Assembly (NCBI GenBank): GCA_025935735.1
Contig: JAICUS010000044.1
Coordinates: forward strand, 1-18,734
Length of the DNA stretch: 18,734 nt
Reading direction: 5' to 3'
From: Solirubrobacteraceae bacterium
Lineage (GTDB): Bacteria > Actinomycetota > Thermoleophilia > Solirubrobacterales > Solirubrobacteraceae
Part shown: positions 1,495 through 18,507 of the stretch, one piece after another
Layout of the letters: each line of letters starts with the position of its first letter
Numbering within the stretch: position 1 is the first letter of the stretch
Program-made: the position numbers and the translations under genes
Notes under the pieces: model-generated
Databases searched by the model: none
Told to the model about the DNA's origin: nothing
The model's input: the letters and a program-made list of their open reading frames with translations, nothing else

Positions 1495-2268
1495 TCACTC
1501 CTCAGAGGCGTCCTCGGCCTCGTCGACGACCGCCTGCCACAGCGCCGCCTCGATCAGCCCGGCGTTGGCCAGCGCCTCGATCGCGGCGGGCTCCTCGGCC
1601 GCCTCGACGAAGCCCTCGGCGACCAGCACGCGGATCACCTCGGCGGCCGACCGCGCGGTCTGCTCGGCCGACGGGCGCTCGCGGCCGGCCAGCACGGCCA
1701 GGGCGTCGAGCAGCGCGGCGCCGCGCGTGGCCCGGGCGAGCTCGAGCGCCTCTTCGGCGTCGGCGCGCGCCTTGAGCTCCGCACCGACGAGCATCTCCAC
1801 CTCGGGCGTGAGGAACCCCTGCGCGCGCAGCGCCCCGCCGGTCCGGTGCACGACGGCCCGCAGCCGCGCCGCCCACACGTGCTCGACGAGCACGACGGCC
1901 GCGTGATCGCCCGGCCCGATCTCGTCGGTCAGCCGGCGCAGGTCCTCCAGCGCGAAGCCGGCCGTCCGCGCGAACGCCTCCGGCGGCGCCAGCCCGCCGT
2001 TGCCGCCGTGGCCGTTGACGCCCAGCAGCCGGGCGATCGGGTTGGCGTCCTCGGCCGGCCGCTCGGCGATCAGCGGCCCGAGATCGACCTCGGTGAGCTT
2101 CCCGCCTTCCCGCGCTCGGTGCAGGAAGCGCGCGTCGATGACGCGGATCATCCCCCGGCCGCGCAGGTCGAGCAGCTCGCGGACGATCTCGCCCTGGAAG
2201 CGCTCGGTCGTCTCGAACCCGACGAGCAGGATCTGGAGCGGGCCGTGGCCCGGCTCTGCGGTGTTCAT
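1495..2268 (-). CDS. DUF1269/DUF6325-like protein of unknown function
   Basis: A 257-residue cytoplasmic protein. The N-terminal half (GPLQILLVGFETTERFQGEI, later RVIDARFLHR) resembles the ferredoxin-like fold proteins annotated as DUF1269/DUF6325, which begin with the same GP-x-Q-hhhhGF and I-D-hhhhh pattern. A Gly-rich linker (GVNGHGGNGG) follows near residue 100, then a second unit containing DHAAVVLVEHVWAARLRAVV. The C-terminal ~100 residues are Ala/Glu-rich helix. No signal peptide or membrane segment is visible. I chose ATG 2268 because it overlaps the TGA of the upstream RTX gene as ATGA, which suggests translational coupling. The function is unknown. Pairing with a secreted RTX protein is a chromosomal fact, but the meaning is open. 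The 3' end points toward the udgX remnant. Confidence 0.8.
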   Translation of the reverse strand: MNTAEPGHGPLQILLVGFETTERFQGEIVRELLDLRGRGMIRVIDARFLHRAREGGKLTEVDLGPLIAERPAEDANPIARLLGVNGHGGNGGLAPPEAFARTAGFALEDLRRLTDEIGPGDHAAVVLVEHVWAARLRAVVHRTGGALRAQGFLTPEVEMLVGAELKARADAEEALELARATRGAALLDALAVLAGRERPSAEQTARSAAEVIRVLVAEGFVEAAEEPAAIEALANAGLIEAALWQAVVDEAEDASEE

Positions 2269-3971
2269 GGCCTCGACATTACGCGCAACCCGCGCTCGAG
2301 CTGGGCCAGCTTCGCCCGCGGCAGGGTGCGGCGGTGGCCGCCGACCCTGAGCACGGTCTTCCCGCGGACGACGCGGGCGTGCGCAGCGAGCCAGCTGCGC
2401 GACGCGTTCAGGTCGGCCGAGTCGATCACGACGTTGTCGCCGGGGCCGCCGTCGAGCGTGTCGGCGCCCGCGCCGCCGATCAGCACGTCGTCGCCCGCCT
2501 CGCCCAGCAGCGTGTCGTTGCCGGCGCCGCCCAGCAGGACGTCGTCGCCGTCGCCGCCGGCCTCGGTCAGCAGCGGCGCGGCCGCGGCCAGCGAGGAGCC
2601 GTCGATGACGTCGTCGCCGGCCAGGCCGTCGACGGTCAGGCGGTCGCCGGCGCCGGCGTTGACCATGTCCACGCGCGCGGCCAGGCCGCTCACCCGCGCG
2701 CTCCCGGCCGAGCCGGTCACGCCGGCCACGTCGTCGCCCGCGGTGGCGTTGACGATCACATTGTCGGCCGCGCCGTCGTCGCCGCCCTCGTCGTCGGTGA
2801 CGCTCGTGACGTCGGTCCCCGAGAGGTCGTTGACGGTCAGGGCGTCGGCGCCGCCCAGGGTCTTGGCGACGATCGCCTCGACGTCGTTGAGGTCCATCGT
2901 GATGGTGGCGACGTCGCGGGTGAAGCGCACGCGCCCGCCGTTCGCCGAGACGTCCATGCGCTCGTTGATGTTCGCGCCGTTGAACGCCATCGTGTCGCTG
3001 CCGGCCTGGCCCTCGATGGTGTCGCTGCCGTCGCCGGGGTCCCACTGCGCGGTGTCGTCGCCGGGGCCCAGGAACATCGTGTCGTTGCCCTGGTTGCCGT
3101 CGGCGAGGTCGTTGCCGTCGCCGCCGAGCAGCACGTCGTTGCCGTTGCCGCCGCGCAGCGAGTCGTTGCCGGCGCCACCGTCGACGGTCAGGGCGATCAG
3201 CGCGGCGAGGTTGCCGGTGGCGGTGAAGCTGTCGTCGCCGCCGTTGGCATTGAGCGTGAGCTTCTCCGACGTGCCGATGTCGAGCGAGAACGGCGCCGGG
3301 TTGACGCGGTCGAAGCGCACGCGGGTGCCGTTGGCGGTGGCGGAGAACTGCTCGGCGCCGTTGCCGCCGTTGACCTCGACCGTGTCGGTGCCGTCGCCGC
3401 CCTCGTTCAGGTCGGTGTCGTCGCCGGGGTTCCAGATCATGCGGTCGCTGCCGGCCTGGCCGAAGACCTGGTCGTCGGCGTCGCCGCCGGTCAGCGTGTC
3501 GTTGTCGGCGCCGCCGAAGAGCAGGTCGTTGCCGCCCTTGCCCAGCAGCGTGTCGTTGCCGTCTTGGCCGAACAGCTGGTCGGCGCCGGAGCCGCCGGTC
3601 AGGACGTCGTTGTCGGACCCGCCGAACAGCAGCGCGCGGGGCAGCGCGCCGTTGGCCTCGTTGAGCGTGAGCACGTCGTTGCCCGCGAGCCCGAAGACCT
3701 GGATCGCCGACGTGTTGGCCACCGTCGGCGTGCCGCCGGAGACGGCGATCGCGCCGCCATTGACCAGGATCCGGCCCGCCGCGTCGCGGCTGAGGAGGAT
3801 CGAGTTCGCCGCGCTGTCGCCGGTCACGCTCAGGATGCCGCCGCTGAACGTCGCGGTGGTGGCGGCCTGGGCCGAGGCGGCCGTGGCCGCGATGAGCCCG
3901 GCGGCCAGCGCACCGCCGCTCACCAGCCGGCGCGTCGTGCGCCGTCCGCCCATCTGGCGTCTTGCCTTCAT
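2265..3971 (-). CDS. Secreted RTX-type calcium-binding repeat protein
   Basis: 568 residues. Residues 1-36 form an export signal: basic MKARRQMGGRRTTRR, a hydrophobic stretch and an AQA-A cleavage site; the paired arginines leave Tat export possible. The mature part has three blocks of GGxGxDxLx nonapeptides, at about 117-178, 264-327 and 472-512, which in this family form parallel beta-rolls that bind calcium between turns. Between them a ~85-residue module appears twice (about 179-263 and 309-393), each starting W-(N/D)-PGD and containing an ANGxRVRFxR strand. The C-terminus (RTLPRAKLAQLERGL) is basic and not a type I secretion signal, consistent with Sec or Tat export in a single-membrane cell. 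Start ATG 3971 has a good AGGAGA ribosome site at 3977-3982, spaced five bases. The stop overlaps the next start as ATGA. A surface or matrix role is likely; the ligand is unknown. Confidence 0.88.
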   Translation of the reverse strand: MKARRQMGGRRTTRRLVSGGALAAGLIAATAASAQAATTATFSGGILSVTGDSAANSILLSRDAAGRILVNGGAIAVSGGTPTVANTSAIQVFGLAGNDVLTLNEANGALPRALLFGGSDNDVLTGGSGADQLFGQDGNDTLLGKGGNDLLFGGADNDTLTGGDADDQVFGQAGSDRMIWNPGDDTDLNEGGDGTDTVEVNGGNGAEQFSATANGTRVRFDRVNPAPFSLDIGTSEKLTLNANGGDDSFTATGNLAALIALTVDGGAGNDSLRGGNGNDVLLGGDGNDLADGNQGNDTMFLGPGDDTAQWDPGDGSDTIEGQAGSDTMAFNGANINERMDVSANGGRVRFTRDVATITMDLNDVEAIVAKTLGGADALTVNDLSGTDVTSVTDDEGGDDGAADNVIVNATAGDDVAGVTGSAGSARVSGLAARVDMVNAGAGDRLTVDGLAGDDVIDGSSLAAAAPLLTEAGGDGDDVLLGGAGNDTLLGEAGDDVLIGGAGADTLDGGPGDNVVIDSADLNASRSWLAAHARVVRGKTVLRVGGHRRTLPRAKLAQLERGLRVMSRP

Positions 3972-4964: not shown

Positions 4965-5636
4965 ATGGCTCCACGACCCCGGGCGGTGCGCGCGGCCGGC
5001 GGCGACGGCGTCGACGCCGGGGCCGTGGCCGCCGCCGCCCGGGGGCTCGGGGTCATGGGCTGGGTGCGGCCCACGGGGGAGCTGCACGCCGAGGGCGCGC
5101 CCGACGCGGTCGAGGCGCTGCTCGCCTCGCTGGGCGACGGGTGGTCCGTCGAGCGGGCGCGCGTCGAGGGCCACGAGCAGTTCGGGATCCGCGGCGTCAG
5201 CGCGGGCGTGTTCGTCGTGCAGGAGCACCAGGCCACCGCGCACCACTACGACTTCCGGCTGGAGGTGGACGGGGTCATGCGCTCCTGGGCGGTGCCCAAG
5301 GGGCCGTCGCTGGACCCCGCGGCCAAGCGCCTGGCCGTCGAGGTCGAGGACCACGGCATGGGCCACAACGACTACGAGGGCGACACGGTGATCATCTGGG
5401 ACCGCGGCACCTACGAGCAGGGCGGCCGCGTCGCCTGGCCCGAGGCGCTCGCGCGCGGGCACGCCGTGTTCGTGCTGCACGGCGAGAAGCTGAGCGGCGG
5501 GTTCGCGCTCCAGCGCACGCGCCCCGGCGCCAAGCCGCAGTGGCTGCTGATCAAGCGCCGCGACGCCGAGGCGCGCCCCGGCTCGGACATCGTGTCCGAG
5601 CGCCCCGAGTCCGTGGTCAGCGGCCGCACGCTCTAG
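4965..5636 (+). CDS. Acylphosphatase-like domain fused to LigD-type 3'-phosphoesterase domain
   Basis: 223 residues, two domains. Residues ~7-70 look like an acylphosphatase: ARGLGVMGWVRPTGELHAEG, then APDAVEALLASL, match the helix-strand-helix core. The catalytic loop (normally VQGVGFR) is replaced by GDGVDAGA and the Asn of GWVRN by Pro, so catalysis is unlikely. Residues ~82-215 match the phosphoesterase (PE) domain that trims 3' ends in bacterial non-homologous end joining: FVVQEHQATAHHYDFRLEVD and SWAVPKGPSLDP. Metal and phosphate ligands His88, His94, Asp96, Arg98, Arg122 and His130 (equivalent to His42, His48, Asp50, Arg52, Arg76 and His84 of Pseudomonas LigD) are present. The position of Tyr88 is His134, and the IPxGxYGxG loop that normally precedes TVIxWDRGTY is missing. 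No ligase, polymerase or Ku gene is in the window. The stop shares a CTAG with the stop of convergent ltrA. Confidence 0.82.
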   Translation: MAPRPRAVRAAGGDGVDAGAVAAAARGLGVMGWVRPTGELHAEGAPDAVEALLASLGDGWSVERARVEGHEQFGIRGVSAGVFVVQEHQATAHHYDFRLEVDGVMRSWAVPKGPSLDPAAKRLAVEVEDHGMGHNDYEGDTVIIWDRGTYEQGGRVAWPEALARGHAVFVLHGEKLSGGFALQRTRPGAKPQWLLIKRRDAEARPGSDIVSERPESVVSGRTL

Positions 5637-6838
5637 GCGAGCCGCTCCAGCGGGGAGGGCTCGCCGCGCGCCGCGCGGCGCTGCCCCGCCACGCGCTCGG
5701 CGGCGATCACCCCCGCGAGGATGACGACGGTCAGCGCCTGCAGGACCCAGCCCGGCGCGAAGCCGCCGGCGGCCCCGGCGAGCAGGCAGGCGCCGGCGCC
5801 GGCGAGGCGCTTGACCGAGACCGTGCCGGCCATCCGCAGCCGGAACACGGCGTGGGCGAGCAGGTAGATCGCCGGGCCGGCCACCACGGTGACCACGGCG
5901 GCGGTGCCGAGCGTGTGCGTGGGGTGGTCGATCACCAGCTCGTCGCCCACCGCGGCCACGATCACCCCGGCGACCATCACGACGTGCAGGTAGGTGTAGG
6001 CGTCGCGGGCCAGCAGCGTGCGGCGCTCCGCCAGCTCGAGCCGGCGCTCGGCGATCGTGGCGACGTAGTCGAAGTACAGCCACCACATCGCCGCCGTGGC
6101 CAGGAAGGCGAGGGCGAACGCGGTCAGCCGCGCGAGGTCGAGGTGCAGGTCGCTCGCGGTCGCCCCAATCATCACGATCGACTCGCCGAGCGCGATGATC
6201 ACGAACAGCTGGAAGCGCTCGGTGAAGTGGCCGCTGTCCACCTGCCAGGCGACGTGGTCCAGCCGCTGCCGGCCGGGGACGCGGTAGACGAACAGCGGTC
6301 CGGCGTAGTCGATGGCCAGCGCCACCAGCCAGAGGACCGTACGGGCGGTGCCGTGCGCGAGCCCGCCGGCCAGCCAGAAGAGCGCCGCCACCGCGAACCA
6401 CGTGAGGATCTCGCCCGCCCGCGTGCGCTCGATCGTGCCGGGCCGCGCCGACGCGAACGTGAGGAACGTGTGCCGCCCCACCTGGATGACCACGTAGGCT
6501 GCGGCGAACAGCAGCCCGCGGTCGCCGAACGCCTTCGGGATGGCCACCGCCATCACCAGGCTGGCCAGCATCAGGCCGATCAGCAGCAGCCGCACCGCGA
6601 TGGCGTCCGGGTCGAGCTCGTTCGTGACCCACGTCGTGTAGTTCCACGACCACCAGACCACGAGCAGCGCCAGGGCGGCCTGGCCGGCGCCCTGCCAGCT
6701 CAGGTGCGCGAGCAGCAGGTGCGAGACCTGCGTGACGGCGAAGACGAAGACGAGGTCGTAGAAGAGCTCGAGCGCCGTGACGCCCCGCGCCTCCTCGCGC
6801 CGCTGGAAGCGCGTCGGCCGACTAGTGGTGCTCGCCAC
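5633..6838 (-). CDS. ltrA: Low temperature requirement A (LtrA) family membrane protein
   Basis: 401 residues, mostly hydrophobic, with about ten membrane helices. The family signature near the N-terminus is clear: RGVTALELFYDLVFVFAVTQ, close to the usual TxxELFxDLVFVFAxTxLS. Other conserved pieces are WWSWNYTTWVTNELDPD and GHFTERFQLFVIIALGESIV. LtrA was named for growth at low temperature in Listeria; its biochemical role is not known. The proposed start is GTG 6838, which lies inside the end of the upstream four-cysteine gene (17-base overlap), so the two genes are probably translated together; no ribosome site is visible. The stop codon overlaps that of the convergent phosphoesterase gene within a single CTAG. 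Confidence 0.9.
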   Translation of the reverse strand: MASTTSRPTRFQRREEARGVTALELFYDLVFVFAVTQVSHLLLAHLSWQGAGQAALALLVVWWSWNYTTWVTNELDPDAIAVRLLLIGLMLASLVMAVAIPKAFGDRGLLFAAAYVVIQVGRHTFLTFASARPGTIERTRAGEILTWFAVAALFWLAGGLAHGTARTVLWLVALAIDYAGPLFVYRVPGRQRLDHVAWQVDSGHFTERFQLFVIIALGESIVMIGATASDLHLDLARLTAFALAFLATAAMWWLYFDYVATIAERRLELAERRTLLARDAYTYLHVVMVAGVIVAAVGDELVIDHPTHTLGTAAVVTVVAGPAIYLLAHAVFRLRMAGTVSVKRLAGAGACLLAGAAGGFAPGWVLQALTVVILAGVIAAERVAGQRRAARGEPSPLERLA

Positions 6839-7388
6839 CGGCGGTGGAAGCCGGCGGGCGGGACTCCTCGGCGAGCGACGTGATCGTCAGGAGCCCGCGG
6901 GCGGCCTCCTCGAGCACCGAGGTCGCCTCCTCCTGCGAGCGCGCGTAGAGCTCGACCAGCAGGTGCACGACGATCTGCTCGTCCTCGTGCTTGTGGTAGC
7001 GCACGTGGGTGAAGAACTCGCGCGTGCCGTGGTCGCCGAACGCCGCGTAGGCCAGGGCGTCGGCGGCCTCGGGGCCCGAGCACGTCTCCACCGAGTCGGC
7101 CTCCACGGCCACCGTGCACGAGGCGACCCACGGCGTGCCCACCACCATCCGCTCCCAGCGGTCCTCGACGGGCTCCAGCCGGTCGTTGTGGAAGACGAGG
7201 TGCGGCTGGTCGTGCATGCAGTCCAGGCACTGCACCACCGCCTCCTGGAGCTCGTCCACCACGTCGGCCCGCTTTCCGGTCACCGGGTCGATGCGATGAA
7301 TCCCCTCATAGTGGACCTGCACCTCCAGGTCCCGGCTCCAGCAGCGGTAGCACCGCAGCCACGATCCGATCTGGCCCGCCGTCGACAT
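6822..7388 (-). CDS. Unrecognised 188-residue protein with two CxxC pairs
   Basis: I do not recognise a family. The N-terminal ~60 residues carry C-Y-R-C (13-16) and C-L-D-C (54-57), a likely four-cysteine zinc site, with His26, His31 and His59 near it. The rest is acidic and rich in Glu and Val (EDEQIVVHLLVELYARSQEE), probably an alpha/beta domain, ending in a His-containing tail (GGEHH). There is no signal peptide or membrane helix, so it is expected in the cytoplasm. Its end overlaps the ltrA start by 17 bases, so a role linked to LtrA is possible. ATG 7388 is preceded by TAGAAT eight bases upstream, which suggests a leaderless mRNA. It is transcribed away from the lipoprotein gene, whose start is only 13 bases away. 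Confidence 0.75.
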   Translation of the reverse strand: MSTAGQIGSWLRCYRCWSRDLEVQVHYEGIHRIDPVTGKRADVVDELQEAVVQCLDCMHDQPHLVFHNDRLEPVEDRWERMVVGTPWVASCTVAVEADSVETCSGPEAADALAYAAFGDHGTREFFTHVRYHKHEDEQIVVHLLVELYARSQEEATSVLEEAARGLLTITSLAEESRPPASTAGGEHH

Positions 7389-7396
7389 GCGTACTC

Positions 7397-7402
7397 ATTC
7401 TA
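7397..7402 (-). promoter_or_regulatory. -10 box (TAGAAT) for the four-cysteine gene and ltrA
   Basis: On the minus strand TAGAAT lies eight bases before ATG 7388, fitting leaderless transcription. The box overlaps the first base of the lipoprotein start codon on the other strand, so the two divergent genes share one very short control region of about 13 bases and could interfere with each other. No clear -35 is visible. Confidence 0.45.
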
Positions 7403-7800
7403 TGCTCCGGCTCGTGCGCCGCCCGCTCGTCGCGCTCGTCGCCGCCGCGCTCGCGCTCGGCGGCTGCGGCTCCGGGCCCTCGGACGCCGAGCAGGTGCGC
7501 GCCGCCGTGCTCGCGTTCGGCCGGGCCACGGCGGCCAAGGACTACCAGCGGCTGTGCGACCGGCTGCTCGCGCCGCGGCTGGTGGAGAAGATCAAGCAGG
7601 CCGGGCTGCCGTGCGAGGTGGCGCTGCAGAAGGGGCTCGGCGGCGTGAAGGACCCGAAGCTGACGATCGGCCGGATCGCCGTCGACGGCGACTCGGCCAC
7701 CGCGGACGTCCGCACGTCGGCCCGCGGCCAGCCGCCGTCCCGGGACACGCTGAAGCTGACCAAGGTGGGTGGAAGATGGAAGATCGCCTCGCTCGGGTAG
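7402..7800 (+). CDS. Small lipoprotein, probable NTF2-like/DUF4878-type fold
   Basis: 132 residues from ATG 7402; an in-frame ATG at 7387 would add five residues and cannot be excluded. I prefer 7402 because it gives a compact lipoprotein signal: MLRLVRRP, a hydrophobic stretch, then the lipobox L-G-G-C with Cys22 as the lipidated residue. The mature part begins with EQVRAAVLAFGRATAAKDYQ and ends with KLTKVGGRWKIASLG, the pattern of small NTF2-like proteins (helix with 'A..AKDY..LC', ending with a strand 'GGRWKI'). Two further cysteines in the mature part could pair outside the cell. It is anchored to the outer face of the membrane; its ligand is unknown. It ends 48 bases before the XRE-cupin start, in whose upstream region the operator boxes lie. 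Confidence 0.8.
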   Translation: MLRLVRRPLVALVAAALALGGCGSGPSDAEQVRAAVLAFGRATAAKDYQRLCDRLLAPRLVEKIKQAGLPCEVALQKGLGGVKDPKLTIGRIAVDGDSATADVRTSARGQPPSRDTLKLTKVGGRWKIASLG

Positions 7801-9570: not shown

Positions 9571-10464
9571 ATGAGCGTGGACGTCGTCGTCGCCGTGCCG
9601 GCCTTCCTCGACATGACCTTCGTGGGTCTCGAGGGCCTGCCCGGGCTCGGCGAGGAGCGCTTCGCCGGCGACCTCGTGCGCTCCCCGGGCGGCGGCGCGA
9701 TCACCGCGATCGGGGCCGCCCGCCTGGGTCTGTCGACCGCCCTGGCCGCGCCGCTGGGCGGCGACCCGGCCGGCGACGTGGTCCGCGGGGTGATGGACGA
9801 GGAGGGCGTGCAGGTCGTCGGCCCGACCTGCCCGCGCACGCCGATCACCATGGTCATGCCGATCGAGGGCGAGCGGGCGATGGTCACCTACGACCCGGGC
9901 GTGCGCGCCCGCGCGGCCGACATCGCCGCGCTGGCCCCGCGCGCCGTGGTCACCGGGCTCAGCCAGCTCGACGTGGTGCCCGCCGGCGCCCGCGCCTACG
10001 TGACCGTGGGCGACGACGACGCCCGTGCGTTCGCCGGCCGCCTGCCCGGCCAGGCGGCCCGGGCCACCGGCCTGCAGATCGACCAGCGCGAGGCGCTCGT
10101 GCTCACCGGCGCCGGGACGCCGCAGGAGGCGGCGGCGATGATCGGGGCGCGGGTGCCCGCGGTGACCGTCTCGCTCAACGGCGGCGGCGCGACCGCGGTG
10201 GTGGACGGCGAGGCGCTGGAGGTCCCGGGCTACGAGATCGGCCACGCGGTCGACTCCACCGGCTCCAGCGACCTGTTCGTCGCCGCCTGGGCGTGGGGCG
10301 ACGCGATCGGCATGCCGGTCGCCGACACCCTGCGCTGGGCCGAGCTCTACGCCGCGCTCTCGGTCCGCGTGCCGACCGGCGCGGCCGGCGCCACGCCGCT
10401 GGGCGAGCTGATGGAGGAGGGCGCCCGCCGCGGCCTCCCCGCCCCGCCGGCGCGCTCGGCCTGA
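9571..10464 (+). CDS. PfkB-family carbohydrate/nucleoside kinase
   Basis: 297 residues, ribokinase fold. The first PfkB signature is seen at residues ~39-53 (SPGGGAITAIGAARLG) and the second at 228-234, where DSTGSSD replaces the common DTTGAGD; Asp234 is the catalytic base and Thr230/Gly231 belong to the anion hole. The family transfers phosphate from ATP to sugars, nucleosides or related alcohols; the substrate cannot be read from sequence. It starts 34 bases after the aminotransferase stop with no promoter that I can see, so it is probably the third gene of the XRE-cupin operon. Its last 118 bases are overlapped by the 3' end of the DUF6691 gene on the other strand. Confidence 0.88.
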   Translation: MSVDVVVAVPAFLDMTFVGLEGLPGLGEERFAGDLVRSPGGGAITAIGAARLGLSTALAAPLGGDPAGDVVRGVMDEEGVQVVGPTCPRTPITMVMPIEGERAMVTYDPGVRARAADIAALAPRAVVTGLSQLDVVPAGARAYVTVGDDDARAFAGRLPGQAARATGLQIDQREALVLTGAGTPQEAAAMIGARVPAVTVSLNGGGATAVVDGEALEVPGYEIGHAVDSTGSSDLFVAAWAWGDAIGMPVADTLRWAELYAALSVRVPTGAAGATPLGELMEEGARRGLPAPPARSA

Positions 10465-10859
10465 CGGCGCACGGCCAGCCGCAGGCCGACCGTCAGCCCG
10501 ACGATCGTGGCCAGGCTCCACCAGACGCCCTGGCCGAGCTGGGTGGCGATCGGGCCCGGGCAGGCGTCGGCCACCGCCCAGCCGGCGCCGAACAGCAGCG
10601 CGCCGACCACGTGCGGGCGGGCCGGCCTGACCGCGGTCCAGCGCACGGGCTCACCGGTGAGCAGCGCGCGGGCGCGCCGGGCGCGCAGCAGCCGCAACCC
10701 TGCGAACGCGGTGACCACCGCGCCGGCGAAGAAGAGGTACAGGTAGGCGCTGCGGAACAACAGTCCGTCCCGAAGTACGACCGGGCTGGTGAGCCCCGTC
10801 CAGCACAGCGTGACGCCGAAGACGACGCCGACCAGCGCGGCGGCCGCCCGCGAGCGCAT
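10347..10859 (-). CDS. YeeE/YedE family transporter, second half (DUF6691-like)
   Basis: 170 residues with about four membrane helices. The family motif is clear: FGAGWAVADACPGPIATQLG, with Cys100 in D-A-C-P-G-P; an N-terminal GLTSP element matches the other half-conserved site. In the two-part YeeE/YedE (Sulf_transp) transporters this protein pairs with the upstream one to form a pore that moves thiosulfate or another sulfur species past conserved cysteines. The start ATG overlaps the stop of its partner (TGATG). The last ~40 residues are a soluble Pro/Ser/Ala-rich tail (SSISSPSGVAPAAPVGTRTE) beyond the usual end of the family; this tail is encoded entirely opposite the pfkB 3' end, so it may be an accidental extension after loss of an earlier stop. 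Confidence 0.82.
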   Translation of the reverse strand: MRSRAAAALVGVVFGVTLCWTGLTSPVVLRDGLLFRSAYLYLFFAGAVVTAFAGLRLLRARRARALLTGEPVRWTAVRPARPHVVGALLFGAGWAVADACPGPIATQLGQGVWWSLATIVGLTVGLRLAVRRQAERAGGAGRPRRAPSSISSPSGVAPAAPVGTRTESAA

Positions 10860-11320
10860 CAGATGACCGCCTCGATCAGGAAGCTCACGCCGATCGCGGT
10901 GGCGAAGAACGTCGCCGTGGCGACCAGGCTGGCCGGCGAGAGCTGCGCGTTGCCGCTCAGCCCGTTGCCCGACGTGCAGCCACCGGCGGTCTTCGCGCCG
11001 TAGCCGATCAGCACGCCGGCGCCGGCCAGGATCGGCGCGATCAGCCAGCGCGCGTTGCCGTGGAAGGTCGCGGTCAGCCAGCCGTAGCCGTGGAAGTCCG
11101 GCCCGCCGGCCACCAGCGTGAACCCGACCGCGCCGATCAGCAGGCCGACGAGCAGCCAGCCGCGCGTGCCGAAGGCCAGGCTGCGCCGCGACAGCCGCTC
11201 CACCACGTCCGACCAGGCGCCGGTGACGCCGAGCCGCTCGTTGAGCAGCCAGCGCAGCGCGACCACACACAGGCCCAGGACGGGCCCGCCGACGAACCAC
11301 GGGAGCTGCTGGTGCAGCAT
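10859..11320 (-). CDS. YeeE/YedE family transporter, first half
   Basis: 153 residues with four membrane helices (about 8-26, 54-74, 91-108, 130-150). The signature GYGAKTAGGCTSGNGLSGNA, at about residues 106-125 with Cys115, is the Sulf_transp motif of YeeE/YedE transporters, where the cysteine relays thiosulfate or a related sulfur compound. Together with the following DUF6691-like gene it makes one two-part transporter. It starts 25 bases after the aldo/keto reductase stop. A TATCCT box seven bases before ATG 11320 could give a leaderless transcript of its own, so it may be both read through from the operon upstream and independently started. Confidence 0.88.
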   Translation of the reverse strand: MLHQQLPWFVGGPVLGLCVVALRWLLNERLGVTGAWSDVVERLSRRSLAFGTRGWLLVGLLIGAVGFTLVAGGPDFHGYGWLTATFHGNARWLIAPILAGAGVLIGYGAKTAGGCTSGNGLSGNAQLSPASLVATATFFATAIGVSFLIEAVI

Positions 11321-13709: not shown

Positions 13710-14144
13710 ATGCTCAATGCTCGCATCGACATCACGCAGGGCCTCGACGGCGAGCCGGTCGTGCTGGCCTGCTTCGATCTCGGCGCCGAGGAGCTCGCCG
13801 CGTCCGCCCAGGCCGTGCGCGCCACGGTCGCCGAGCGGTTCCGCACCGCGAGCATGTCCACCGACGACGTGCTCGAGCTGCGCGAGCTGACCGCGCTGAC
13901 GGACGAGCTGGCCGAGTTCGCGCGCGAGCCCGGGATGCGCTCGGTCGTCATGCGCCCCGCGCGGCTGTCGGCCTGGCGGGACGCCCTGGCGCACTTCGTG
14001 GAGAGCCGCGACGACGCCGAGTGGACGCGCTCCGACGACCGCGAGGCGCTGCCCGCGGCCCGCGGCCTGCTGTGGCCGCTCGAGGACCTCTGCGCCGAGG
14101 CGATGCGCGCCGCGCTCAGCCCGCCGGCGCCGAAGGCCTGCTGA
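13710..14144 (+). CDS. Unrecognised 144-residue helical protein
   Basis: I cannot assign a family. The protein starts MLNARIDITQGLDGEPVVL, a probable pair of strands, followed by ACFDLGAEELAASAQAVRAT and mostly acidic, Leu/Ala/Glu/Arg-rich helices (TDDVLELRELTALTDELAEF; ARGLLWPLEDLCAEAMRAAL). There is no signal peptide, membrane helix or metal motif, so it is probably cytoplasmic. Codon use with strong G/C at third positions supports a real gene. ATG 13710 was chosen over GTG 13659, 13668 and 13695 because of the -10 box at 13691. It diverges from the F420-type oxidoreductase operon and overlaps the convergent aldolase gene by 29 bases at the 3' end. Confidence 0.6.
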   Translation: MLNARIDITQGLDGEPVVLACFDLGAEELAASAQAVRATVAERFRTASMSTDDVLELRELTALTDELAEFAREPGMRSVVMRPARLSAWRDALAHFVESRDDAEWTRSDDREALPAARGLLWPLEDLCAEAMRAALSPPAPKAC

Positions 14145-14901
14145 GGCTCCTCAATTCGCTCACTGCGGCGCGTGCCGCCTGCAGCATCCAGCCGCCGTCG
14201 GAGCCGACGGCGATCATCCGGAAGCCGTCGTCGATCGCGTGCTGCGCGTCGGCGGTGGAGGCCAGGAAGATGCCCGCGGCCTTGCCCGCGGCGTCGGCGG
14301 CGGCGACGACGCGCTCGATCGCGGCGCGGAAGCGGGGGTCGTCGAACCGGCGGTAGATGCCCATCGAGTGCGAGAGGTCGCTCGGGCCGACGAAGACGAC
14401 GTCGATGCCGTCGATGGCCGCGATCCCCTCGACGGCCTCGACCGCCTCGGGGGACTCGATCTGGGCGATGCCGAGCGTGCGCTCGGCCGCGTGACGGATG
14501 GCCTCGGGGTCGGTGCCGAAGCGGGCGCCGCGGGGGAACAGCGCCACGCCGCGGCTGCCCGCCGGGCCGTAGTGGAGCGCGCCGGCCCAGGCCTCGGCCT
14601 GGGCGACGGAGTTGATCTGCGGGCACATCAGGCCCTCGACGCCGAGGTCGAGCGCCCGCGCGGCGCGCGAGCGGTGGTCGTTCTCCACCCGGGCGAGCAC
14701 GTGCACGCCCGCGGCGGCCGCGCCGAGCGCCTGCGGCAGCAGCTGCGCCTCGTGCCCGCCGCCGTGCTCGAGGTCGACGAGCAGCCAGTCCCAGCCCGCG
14801 AGCCCGAGCGCCTCTGCCGCCAGCGGGCTGCCCAGCGTGAGGAAGCTGCCGAACAGGGTCTCGCCGGCGGCGAGGCGGGCCTTCATGGGCGTCTGGGGCA
14901 T
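14116..14901 (-). CDS. HpcH/HpaI family class II (pyruvate-type) aldolase
   Basis: 261 residues, TIM barrel. WDWLLVDLEHG carries the general base His46, RVENDHRSR the Arg71 that binds the pyruvate carboxylate, QIESPEAV the metal ligand Glu149 and VFVGPSDLSHSMG the metal ligand Asp175; the last two coincide in number with those of HpcH. The family cleaves 4-hydroxy-2-oxo acids or 2-dehydro-3-deoxy sugar acids to pyruvate plus an aldehyde with a divalent metal. The exact substrate is not predictable. Start ATG 14901 has no ribosome site but has a TAGGTT -10 box ending six bases upstream, and that box overlaps the nearby palindromic repeat. Its 3' end overlaps the gene on the other strand by 29 bases. 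Confidence 0.88.
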   Translation of the reverse strand: MPQTPMKARLAAGETLFGSFLTLGSPLAAEALGLAGWDWLLVDLEHGGGHEAQLLPQALGAAAAGVHVLARVENDHRSRAARALDLGVEGLMCPQINSVAQAEAWAGALHYGPAGSRGVALFPRGARFGTDPEAIRHAAERTLGIAQIESPEAVEAVEGIAAIDGIDVVFVGPSDLSHSMGIYRRFDDPRFRAAIERVVAAADAAGKAAGIFLASTADAQHAIDDGFRMIAVGSDGGWMLQAARAAVSELRSLSRPSAPAG

Positions 14902-14907
14902 CCCGGA

Positions 14908-14913
14908 AACCTA
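14908..14913 (-). promoter_or_regulatory. -10 box (TAGGTT) for the aldolase, overlapping a REP-like repeat
   Basis: On the minus strand TAGGTT ends six bases before ATG 14901, the spacing of a leaderless mRNA. Its first two bases (14913-14912) are part of the outer arm of the palindromic repeat at 14912-14932. If the repeat is a later insertion, it may have supplied or altered the promoter. Confidence 0.45.
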
Positions 14914-14967
14914 AAGGGGTCAGTCCCCTTTAAGCCGCGCGGACGTTAAAAGGGGTCTGACCCCTTT
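14912..14967 (-). repeat. REP/BIME-like pair of AAAGGGGTCAG-type palindromes
   Basis: Two near-identical hairpins flank the small palindrome CCGCGCGG (14935-14942). The first has arms TAAAGGGG (14912-14919) and CCCCTTTA (14925-14932) with loop TCAGT. The second has arms AAAGGGG (14949-14955) and CCCCTTT (14961-14967) with loop TCTGA. The second, read on the minus strand, matches the first at all but one base of 19, so they are in opposite orientation, as in a BIME made of two REP units. It begins just outside the cupin stop codon and ends in the aldolase -10 box. For minus-strand transcripts the unit next to cupin ends CCCCTTTT and can serve as an intrinsic terminator. Motifs of the AAAGGGGTCAGACCCCTTT type are known to me as dispersed repeats in many genomes. 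Confidence 0.75.
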
Positions 14968-14969
14968 GA

Positions 14970-15503
14970 CTACGCGGTGGCCGGGAGCGGGGTCCGGGCG
15001 AGCTTGGCCAGCGGCGCCATCGTGAGCTGCTGGAGCCAGGCGGGCGGGAACGGGCCGCGGACCTCGCGGCGGAAGCGGCGGGTGAACTGGGCCAGCGCGA
15101 GCGGGCGGGGCATGCCGCTGCGCAGCGTCCGGCCCTCCTCGGCGAGGCGCACAGCGGTCTCGAGCAGCTGCTCCATCTGGAGCGCCGGCCGGACCTCGAC
15201 CTGCGCGCGCGTGACCTGGCCGCTCGCGTTGGCGAACTTGTGGGCGGCGCCGGGCGGGACGGTGACGACGTCGCCGGGGCCGGCCTCGATGGTCTTGCGG
15301 CCGAGCTTGAAGCGCATCCGCCCCTCGACCACGCGGAACGTCTCGGTCTGCTGCGGGTGGACGTGGAGGCCGGGAACACGGCCGTCGGGCGTGAGCTCGA
15401 GGTCGAACGCGAGCAGCTCGCCGTCCGTGTCGGCGGCGGTGCGGGTGAAGGTGATCGTCTCGCCGGAGACGGGGTTCTGGAGGATCTGTCCGGTGTGGGC
15501 CAT
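14970..15503 (-). CDS. Cupin-domain protein
   Basis: 177 residues. The cupin barrel occupies about residues 25-110. Metal-type ligands are visible: His47, His49 and Glu54 in LHVHPQQTETFRVVEG and His88 in VPPGAAHKFAN; GPGDVVTVPPGAAH is the classic second cupin motif. The C-terminal ~65 residues are helical (LEEG-type start, then FTRRFRREVRGPFPPAWLQQ) and resemble the tail seen in small single-cupin proteins of unknown role. It is probably a metal-binding enzyme or sensor in the cytoplasm. Start ATG 15503 has a GGGAGAG ribosome-site-like stretch about eight bases upstream. It lies 88 bases downstream of meaB on the same strand, so it could be cotranscribed. The repeat pair starts immediately after its stop. 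Confidence 0.85.
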   Translation of the reverse strand: MAHTGQILQNPVSGETITFTRTAADTDGELLAFDLELTPDGRVPGLHVHPQQTETFRVVEGRMRFKLGRKTIEAGPGDVVTVPPGAAHKFANASGQVTRAQVEVRPALQMEQLLETAVRLAEEGRTLRSGMPRPLALAQFTRRFRREVRGPFPPAWLQQLTMAPLAKLARTPLPATA

Positions 15504-15591
15504 GGCGGGGACTCTCCCGGGCGGCGGCCCGCACGTCGTCGGCCTCTGTGGCGATCTTCGCTGATCCGGTCGGATGGTCTTGCGTCGTCAC

Positions 15592-16521
15592 TCAGGAGGA
15601 CGCGCGGTCCTCCAAGAGGCGCACCAGGGTCGGCTCGTCGGATGACGGGTCCTGCTCGGCGAGCCAGCGGCGGGCGGCACGGCGGCCGCCGAGCGCGCGC
15701 AGCCCGCGCTCGCCGTGCTCGGCCAGGAAGTCGGCCAGCGCGCCGGCCCGGCGGGCGGCCGTGCGGCGGACGGAGAGGTCGAGGCCGGCGCGGTGCGCGG
15801 CCAGCGCGTCGGCCAGCTCGGCGATGCCGGCGACCGGCGCGACCGCGGAGACGGCGAGCACCGGCGTGCCCTTCGCGCCGAGGGCGGCGAGCGCGGCGGC
15901 CAGGTCGTGCTCGGCCCGGCGGGCGGCGGCGCCGAGGTCCGCCTTGGTGACGACCAGCACGTCGGGGATCTCCATGATCCCGGCCTTCAGGAACTGCAGC
16001 GCGTCGCCCGAGCCGGGCTGGACGACGACCGCCACGGTGTCCGCCGCCTCGGCCACGTCGGTCTCCGACTGCCCGACCCCGACGGTCTCGATCACCACGA
16101 GGTCGAACGCGCCCGCCAGCGCCTGCGCCGCCGCCCGGGTCGCCGGCGCGAGCCCGCCGAGCCGCTCCCCGGCGGCCATCGAGCGGATGAACACGTCGCG
16201 GTCGGCCGGGTCGTGCTCGATCCGCGCGCGGTCGCCCAGCAGCGCGCCGCCGGAGCGCTTGGACGACGGGTCGACGGCCAGCACGGCCACGCTCTGGCCG
16301 CGGGTGCGCCATTCGCGCAGCAGCGCGGAGAGCAGCGTCGACTTGCCCGAGCCCGGCGGGCCGGTGACGCCGATGACGTGGCCGGCGCCCTCGCCCGCCC
16401 GCGCCACCAGCGCGGCCGCCTCGGCGCGCCGCGTGCGGTTCTCCAGCAGGTTCAGCGCGGCGGGCGCGGCCGCGCGGTCGCCGGCGCGCAGCCGCGCGCC
16501 GAGCTCCTCGGCGCCGGTCAC
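15592..16521 (-). CDS. meaB: MeaB/ArgK-family GTPase, chaperone of a B12-dependent acyl-CoA mutase
   Basis: 309 residues, G3E-type GTPase. The Walker A motif is GPPGSGKST (residues 54-62); AVDPSSKRSGGALLGDRARI is the family-specific segment; VVIETVGVGQSETDV is the Walker B and switch region; VVTKAD gives guanine specificity. MeaB loads and protects adenosylcobalamin in methylmalonyl- or ethylmalonyl-CoA mutase and helps eject inactivated cofactor. The start GTG 16521 overlaps the mutase stop as GTGA, so the two are translated together, as in many genomes. The gene itself looks intact even though the mutase frame upstream carries an amber codon. If that stop is real, translation of meaB by coupling would be reduced. 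Confidence 0.93.
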   Translation of the reverse strand: MTGAEELGARLRAGDRAAAPAALNLLENRTRRAEAAALVARAGEGAGHVIGVTGPPGSGKSTLLSALLREWRTRGQSVAVLAVDPSSKRSGGALLGDRARIEHDPADRDVFIRSMAAGERLGGLAPATRAAAQALAGAFDLVVIETVGVGQSETDVAEAADTVAVVVQPGSGDALQFLKAGIMEIPDVLVVTKADLGAAARRAEHDLAAALAALGAKGTPVLAVSAVAPVAGIAELADALAAHRAGLDLSVRRTAARRAGALADFLAEHGERGLRALGGRRAARRWLAEQDPSSDEPTLVRLLEDRASS

Positions 16522-18473
16522 GCCGCCGTGGAGACGCCGTTGCGCTGGGCCACCAGCGCCACGATGTCCCGCATGATCCGGTCGAGCTCGAAGTCCTTGG
16601 GCGTGTAGACCGCGGCGACGCCGGCCCGCTCCAAGAAGGCCACGTCGGCCTCGGGAATGATGCCGCCGGCCACCACGGGGATGTCCGCGCCGTCCAGCGC
16701 GGCGATCACGTCGGGCACGAGCTCCTTGTGCGAGCCGCTGAGGATCGACAGGCCGATCACGTGGACGCCCTCGTCGATCGCGGAGCGGGCGATCTGCGCG
16801 GGGGTGAGCCGGATGCCCTCGTAGACGACGTCCATGCCGGCGTCGCGGGCGCGGACCGCGATCTGCTCGGCGCCGTTGGAGTGGCCGTCGAGCCCGGGCT
16901 TGCCCACGAGGATCTTCAGCGTGCGCCCGAGCGCCTCGCTGACCCGCGCGACCTCGTCGCGCAGCGCCTCGTCGGCGGCGGGCGAGGCCGCCTCGCCGAC
17001 GCCGGTGGGCGCCCGGTAGGAGCCGAACACGTCGCGCAGCGCGGCCGCCCACTCGCCGGTGGTCACGCGCGCCCGGGCGGCGGCCAGGGTGGCGGGCATG
17101 ACGTTCTCGCCGGTCGCGGCGACGCGCTTGAGCTCGTCGAGCACCTGCGTCACGTCGCCGCGCTCGGCCCGCCACCGCTCTATGGCCTCCCGCGCCTCGT
17201 TCTCGACGCCGGGGTCGACCACGAGGATCCCGCCGTCCTGGGTGAGCGGCGACGGCTCGGTCTCCTTGAAGCGGTTGACGCCCACCAGCACCTGCTCGCC
17301 GGACTCGATGCGCGCGAGCCGCTCGCGGTGCGACTCCACCAGCGCGGCCTTCATGTAGGCCACGGCCTCGACCGCGCCGCCGCGCTCCTCGACGCGCGCC
17401 ATCTCTCCTCTGGCCCCGGCCAGCAGCTCGTCCACGAGGCCGTCCATCACCTTGGAGCCCTCGAAGATGTCGGGGTACTCGAGCAGGTCGGTCTCGTAGG
17501 CCAGCACCTGCTGGATGCGCAGCGACCACTGCTGGTCCCACGGCCGCGGCAGCCCGAGCGCCTCGTTCCAGGCGGGGAGTTGGACCGCGCGGGCGCGCGC
17601 GCCGCGGCCCAGGGTGACCGCGAGCGCCTCGAGCACGATCCGCTGCACGTTGTTCTCCGGCTGGGACTCGGTCAGCCCGAGGCTGTTGACCTGCACGCCG
17701 TAGCGGAAGCGGCGGTGGCGCTCGTCCTGCACGCCGTAGCGGTCGCGGCCGAGCTCGTCCCACAGCGCGGCCATCGCCCGCAGCTTCGCGTGCTCCTCCA
17801 CGAACCGCACGCCCGCGTTGACGAAGAAGCTGATGCGCCCGAACACCGCCCCCATGCGGTCCTCCGGCACCCGCTCGCGCACCGCGTCGAGGATGGCGAT
17901 CGCCGTGGCCATGCTGTACGCGATCTCCTGCACCGGCGTCGCCCCCGCCTCCTGCAGGTGATAGGAGCACACGTTGACCGGGTTCCACTTCGGCACGTGC
18001 TCGACCGTGTAGGCCACCATGTCGGCGATCAGCCGCAGCGACGGCCCGGGCGGGAACGCGTACGTCCCGCGCGACAGGTACTCCTTGATGATGTCGTTCT
18101 GCGTGGTGCCCTGGAGCCGATCCTCGGCGATCCCCTGCTCCTCGGCCGCGACGATGTAGAGCGCGAGCAGCCAGGCCGCGGTCGCGTTGATCGTCATCGA
18201 CGTGTTCATCTCGCCGAGCGGGATGCCGTCCAGCAGCGTCCGCATGTCGCCCCTGTGGCTCACCGGCACCCCGACCTTGCCGACCTCGCCCCGGGCCAGC
18301 GCGTCGTCGGGGTCATAACCCGTCTGCGTGGGCAGGTCGAAGGCGACCTAGAGCCCGGTCTGGCCCTTCGCCAGGTTGCGGCGGTACAGCTCGTTCGACT
18401 TCGCCGCGGTCGAGTGCCCCGCGTAGGTGCGCATCATCCACGGCCGATCGCGCTCCGGCAGCCGATGCTCCAT
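16518..18473 (-). pseudogene. ecm: Ethylmalonyl-CoA mutase (MeaA clade) with in-frame amber stop at codon 42
   Basis: From ATG 18473 to TGA 16518 one frame encodes 651 residues interrupted only by TAG at 18348-18350. Before it come [20 protein letters not shown] and LAKGQTGL, after it VAFDLPTQTGYDPDDALARG; the family has Ser here (GLSVAFD), so TCG to TAG, one base (18349), explains it. The remainder is a complete B12-dependent mutase: MNTSMTINATAAWLLALY, GTTQNDIIKEYLSRGTY, FPPGPSLRLI, VCSYHLQEAGATPVQEIAY, and a B12-binding domain with D529-x-H531-x-x-G534 (KPGLDGHSNG). Length and motifs fit the MeaA/ethylmalonyl-CoA mutase clade (acetate assimilation) better than methylmalonyl-CoA mutase. Restart at GTG 18269 would lack the Tyr-bearing N-terminus. 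It may be a true nonsense mutation, a sequencing error (G to T on the plus strand) or, least likely, readthrough. meaB follows by GTGA overlap. Confidence 0.85.
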
Positions 18474-18479
18474 GGCGAG

Positions 18480-18507
18480 AGAGTATTGACTCGCCAGTCA
18501 ACGGCAA
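18480..18507 (-). promoter_or_regulatory. ecm-meaB promoter with a 16-bp palindrome filling the spacer
   Basis: On the minus strand TTGCCG (18507-18502) and TACTCT (18485-18480) form a -35/-10 pair with a 16-base spacer, and the spacer is exactly the palindrome TTGACTGGCGAGTCAA (18501-18486; 6-bp arms, GGCG centre). The -10 ends six bases before ATG 18473, so the transcript is probably leaderless. A dimeric repressor, of TetR type for example, would block the promoter from this site. No such regulator gene lies next to it in view. Confidence 0.65.

Follow-up and report, generated by a model that had tools for sequence, protein, structure and literature searches.

A single in-frame TAG, private to one contig, in an otherwise intact ethylmalonyl-CoA mutase gene: probably a consensus error or a very young allele

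Within the window, by which we mean the whole stretch of 18,734 nucleotides analysed here, which appears to be an entire contig from a Solirubrobacter-like actinobacterium, the gene for a predicted ethylmalonyl-CoA mutase is interrupted by a TAG at codon 42, and this TAG is private to the window among the copies examined. The most likely explanation, to which we assign a probability of roughly 55%, is that one base of the assembled consensus is wrong and created the TAG; the organism itself would then carry an ordinary gene for ethylmalonyl-CoA mutase. Next in likelihood comes a very young nonsense allele. We weighted the two in this way because the relatives are intact, because loss of the enzyme is expected to be costly and because the contig is supposed to derive from a metagenome. 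A single private stop on one contig is an ordinary event.

The mutase gene is read on the minus strand, where the ATG at 18473..18471 is in frame with the TAG at 18350..18348, with 41 sense codons before the stop and 609 after it. The residues adjoining the TAG are GQTGL on the N-terminal side and VAFDLPTQ on the C-terminal side, and the frame ends with a TGA that overlaps the GTG start of meaB at 16521. With the stop read as X, the translation forms a single chain in which an acyl-CoA mutase domain (PF01642, residues 7-484) is followed by a B12-binding domain (PF02310, residues 520-622). The protein exceeded the curated cut-offs of TIGR00641 and TIGR00640, and its close homologues are called ethylmalonyl-CoA mutase or MeaA in their source records, these names being annotation. 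Domains, profile scores and homologue names together suggest an ethylmalonyl-CoA mutase, with a predicted substrate, although the uninterrupted frame expected of such a gene is broken here by the TAG at codon 42. A lone stop in a frame this long and this well matched is not the chance noise of an out-of-frame reading. An earlier note on this DNA had reported an amber stop at this place in an otherwise intact mutase; its location proved exact on the minus strand, and the full-length frame with both domains agrees with the rest of that description. The features of the locus are collected in Table 1.

Table 1. Coordinates of the mutase gene, its in-frame TAG and the adjoining features in the window
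Feature	Coordinates	Strand	Remarks
Ethylmalonyl-CoA mutase (meaA/ecm) frame	16518..18473	-	651 codons plus stop, broken at codon 42; TIGR00641, TIGR00640, PF01642, PF02310, named homologues
In-frame TAG, codon 42	18348..18350	-	Ser in relatives examined
Downstream ATG-initiated reading	16521..18245	-	Codon 77 onward, 575 aa (P0064, the product given for the window contig)
Probable -10 box, TACTCT	18480..18485	-	6 bases ahead of ATG; TANNNT 6 or 7 bases ahead in 29/31 loci with a candidate start codon
Inverted repeat TTGACT-N4-AGTCAA, candidate operator	18486..18501	-	Just upstream of -10 box; read directly
MeaB/ArgK-type GTPase gene, intact	15592..16521	-	PF03308 over cut-off; start overlaps mutase stop

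To compare codon 42 among other copies, we used a sample made up of the best 80 of 591 confirmed contig stretches and 25 loci from the 118 family genomes that matched. A larger set of 121 other loci, all with Ser, included duplicates and paralogues; once 12 duplicate loci and four loci with less than 60% identity were dropped, 105 other distinct loci and the window were left. Ser was encoded at codon 42 in all 105 other loci (at least 60% identity), and the window alone of the 106 had TAG. Among homologous proteins (the best 120 of 8000 scored), Ser was present in 119 out of 120, that is, in every protein other than the window's own shortened product, which falls short of the site. Since a stop at this site is invisible in protein databases, the DNA loci are the fairer test. 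The earlier note had taken the lost residue to be a conserved Ser and had called for the codon to be compared in close relatives; these counts bear it out, and the close relatives have Ser, a near-identical copy included. That copy, P0002, lies on another NCBI contig (9,976 bases) and matches the window over 651 residues except for Ser at 42 and one Val-to-Ile difference near the C-terminus, at a position where P0004 and P0005 also differ from each other. The proteins P0003 to P0006 are 97-98% identical and likewise have Ser at 42.

In the family search, 118 out of 146 genomes matched strongly, the closest being seven genomes of one genus with 83-85% DNA identity over the gene. The mutase genes of two of these (G134 and G135) are identical, so that the seven genus loci amount to about six independent comparisons. 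Three loci (L041, L070 and L078) showed stops within their best match, all at query positions 645-649, which is the normal end of the gene, and a fourth (L086), with a stop at query position 488, is a paralogue with 38% identity.

The near-identical copy and the related copies with an ordinary codon indicate that the TAG is probably either a sequence error or a mark of a very young broken copy. We saw no further decay in the mutase gene: the frame is full length, and the meaB product is identical in two contigs. The dN/dS ratio was 0.18-0.22 between the window and the seven genus loci and 0.10-0.22 among those loci, placing the window near the top of the range for the genus, and ratios of this size indicate that the mutase gene is under strong selection. 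Because P0002 is near-identical to the window, the divergence of the window must be older than the stop. The dN/dS values and P0002 thus point to an event that was very recent or to an error, without separating the two. The earlier note had named a very recent event and a sequence error among its explanations, and both are supported by the conserved Ser site within a frame that is otherwise full length and whose start region and neighbouring meaB are intact.

Several points weigh against a consensus error: nothing in the neighbouring genes suggests that the consensus is poor in general, the dN/dS values of the window are high within the genus range, and a nonsense allele that is real and recent would be indistinguishable in sequence. 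Nine of the ten neighbouring genes scanned had a Pfam match, most of them over nearly the whole profile, the exception being the first gene, which the edge of the window truncates. Among the 19 gene models there is one internal stop, a count that is uninformative on consensus quality because the other models had been picked as open frames (two of the 19 are incomplete at the start). Across the 19 models there are 1118 opportunities for a one-step nonsense change, 158 of them in the mutase gene and 575 of the G:C to T:A type. Changes of the G:C to T:A type arise both from library damage and from mutation in cells. Neither the position of the stop nor its type discriminates between error and allele, since both sources produce the type and 575 of the 1118 opportunities share it. 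What looked like a second internal stop, in 10347-11320, was dismissed when the span was resolved into two adjacent frames. We also saw no sign of a chimera, as the meaA, meaB, cupin and aldolase genes of the window match in the same order within one locus (L116) of genome G138. A search of the literature for stop-codon errors in metagenomes returned no match.

Taken as given, the sequence reads as a real and very young null allele, from which a 41-residue fragment would be made and by which the ethylmalonyl-CoA route for acetate-type carbon would be lost. Any of 158 single substitutions could create a stop in the mutase gene, and rare null alleles occur in natural populations. Against such an allele, the near-identical P0002 is intact and the 105 other loci examined all have Ser; moreover, a single close mutase copy and the lack of an isocitrate lyase match in relatives would imply strong selection on the gene where acetate-type carbon matters. 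We regard a null allele as possible and as our tentative second choice after a consensus error.

The expected cost of loss was judged from the seven genus genomes. Each had one close mutase copy (86-89% identity) with no stop inside; the mutase search otherwise hit more distant mutases (38-42%), B12-binding domains and, in G137, one weakly matching sequence. All seven also had ccr over the cut-off, and none had an isocitrate lyase match, compared with 8 out of 14 control genomes. The ethylmalonyl-CoA route may thus be the sole acetate route of the genus (G134-G140), and these relatives probably need the mutase to grow on acetate-type carbon. Given this gene content in the relatives, loss of the mutase would probably be costly. 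The claim in the earlier note that loss would disable the ethylmalonyl-CoA route is, by analogy with these seven relatives, a reasonable one. If the stop is real, one strain would have lost acetate assimilation in a lineage where the relatives gave no isocitrate lyase match, a metabolic loss caught very early. In all seven genomes, ccr and meaA share contig and strand, and in five of them the two are within about 2 kb of each other.

The conserved start of the gene bears on whether the 41 codons ahead of the TAG belong to it. A TANNNT motif ends 6 or 7 bases ahead of a candidate start codon in 29 out of 31 distinct loci (17 at spacing 6 and 12 at spacing 7, with two loci that do not fit), and any other spacing from 0 to 19 occurred in at most one locus each. 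These loci were drawn from 35 distinct loci of Solirubrobacteraceae and kin with at least 72% identity (L001-L010 and L089-L113), of which four without a candidate start codon were left out; in the locus of G139 (L093), the scanned range contained no ATG, GTG or TTG. The spacing suggests the geometry of a leaderless transcript, and leaderless transcripts are known from actinobacteria. Because this geometry is conserved, in the window as elsewhere, the first 41 codons are very probably genuine. In all seven genus genomes, the alignment of the N-terminus begins at residue 1 or 2. This and the start geometry contradict the refuting case named in the earlier note, homologues that start past the site and lack a conserved N-terminus, and on the same grounds we reject a naturally shorter protein with a downstream start.

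The earlier note had also described the promoter, operator and meaB as intact. This held for the start region and for meaB, but conservation of the operator is partial: G140 has a similar inverted repeat and G137 a weaker one, and we saw none in the other five genus loci. The window MeaB protein has an identical entry in two contigs, the second of which may be the contig of P0002; TIGR00750 scored it at 224.6 bits, just under the cut-off of 240.75. The gene order meaA, meaB, cupin and HpcH-type aldolase (14116-18473) is common to the window and G138. Elsewhere in the window, a minus-strand gene (2265-3971) encodes a 568-aa protein with repeated GGxGND-like motifs that by eye resemble calcium-binding RTX repeats.

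We also considered whether a working enzyme could be made despite the stop. Reinitiation at the ATG of codon 77 (18245) would yield a functional 575-aa mutase; the product given for the window contig, P0064, starts at this codon, and an AGGGG lies shortly ahead of its ATG. However, residues 1-76 are conserved in the seven genus genomes, and solved mutases align with the query starting at its residue 10. The aligned part takes in the TYAG stretch, in which the Tyr is catalytic in methylmalonyl-CoA mutase. We therefore consider reinitiation very improbable. If the TAG is an error, the 575-aa product would be an artefact of truncation and no basis for annotating a shorter mutase.

Read-through, in which a suppressor tRNA or a recoded TAG would insert an amino acid at codon 42 so that the full enzyme is made, is also highly unlikely, if a shade less so than reinitiation. 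The frame past the TAG is intact, as read-through would have it, but an intact frame is expected anyway after a recent change. TAG is the stop of 6 out of 19 gene models in the window, so its ordinary use as a stop is not avoided. Two convergent genes, encoding a LigD 3'-phosphoesterase-like protein and LtrA, share a CTAG at 5633-5636 in which their TAG stops overlap, and the cupin homologue in G138 stops one residue earlier than the window cupin, also with TAG. For the TAG-ended gene at 6822-7388, all five homologues stop within 4 codons; for the TAG-ended gene at 7387-7800, three out of four stop within 6 codons, and the fourth runs on. Release factor RF1 was over the cut-off in all seven genus genomes, and TAG was found at codon 42 in none of the 105 other distinct loci. 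No PylS was over the cut-off in any of the 146 family genomes, 130 of which had weak matches far below it (the best at 38.1 bits against a cut-off of 178.15); in the control for this search, 1 out of 14 genomes was over the cut-off. ARAGORN found no tRNA gene in the window. Least probable of all is that a natural amber-suppressing tRNA reads codon 42 and the full mutase is made, which would amount to strain-level recoding of a central-carbon enzyme. The suggestion in the earlier note that the codon is read through therefore finds no favour in the TAG-ended models, RF1 and the PylS search, and the evidence gives no cause to revise the genetic code in the window.

The window can be compared with known cases. 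As in ordinary single-base nonsense changes and consensus errors of assembled contigs, one stop lies in a gene that is otherwise intact and is private to a single contig, and we found no feature that sets the window apart from them. The large subunit of methylmalonyl-CoA mutase (1req, 2xij) belongs to the same family by sequence, and the human enzyme keeps the Ser of GLSVAFD when aligned with the window protein. The window protein falls under the curated cut-off of NF006944, a model for methylmalonyl-CoA mutase (527.5 against 876 bits). The closest comparison is with the ethylmalonyl-CoA mutase (Ecm/MeaA) of Solirubrobacter, which has 86-89% protein identity to the window over nearly the whole length in all seven genus genomes. 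These copies have the same start geometry as the window and, unlike the window with its TAG, encode Ser at codon 42.
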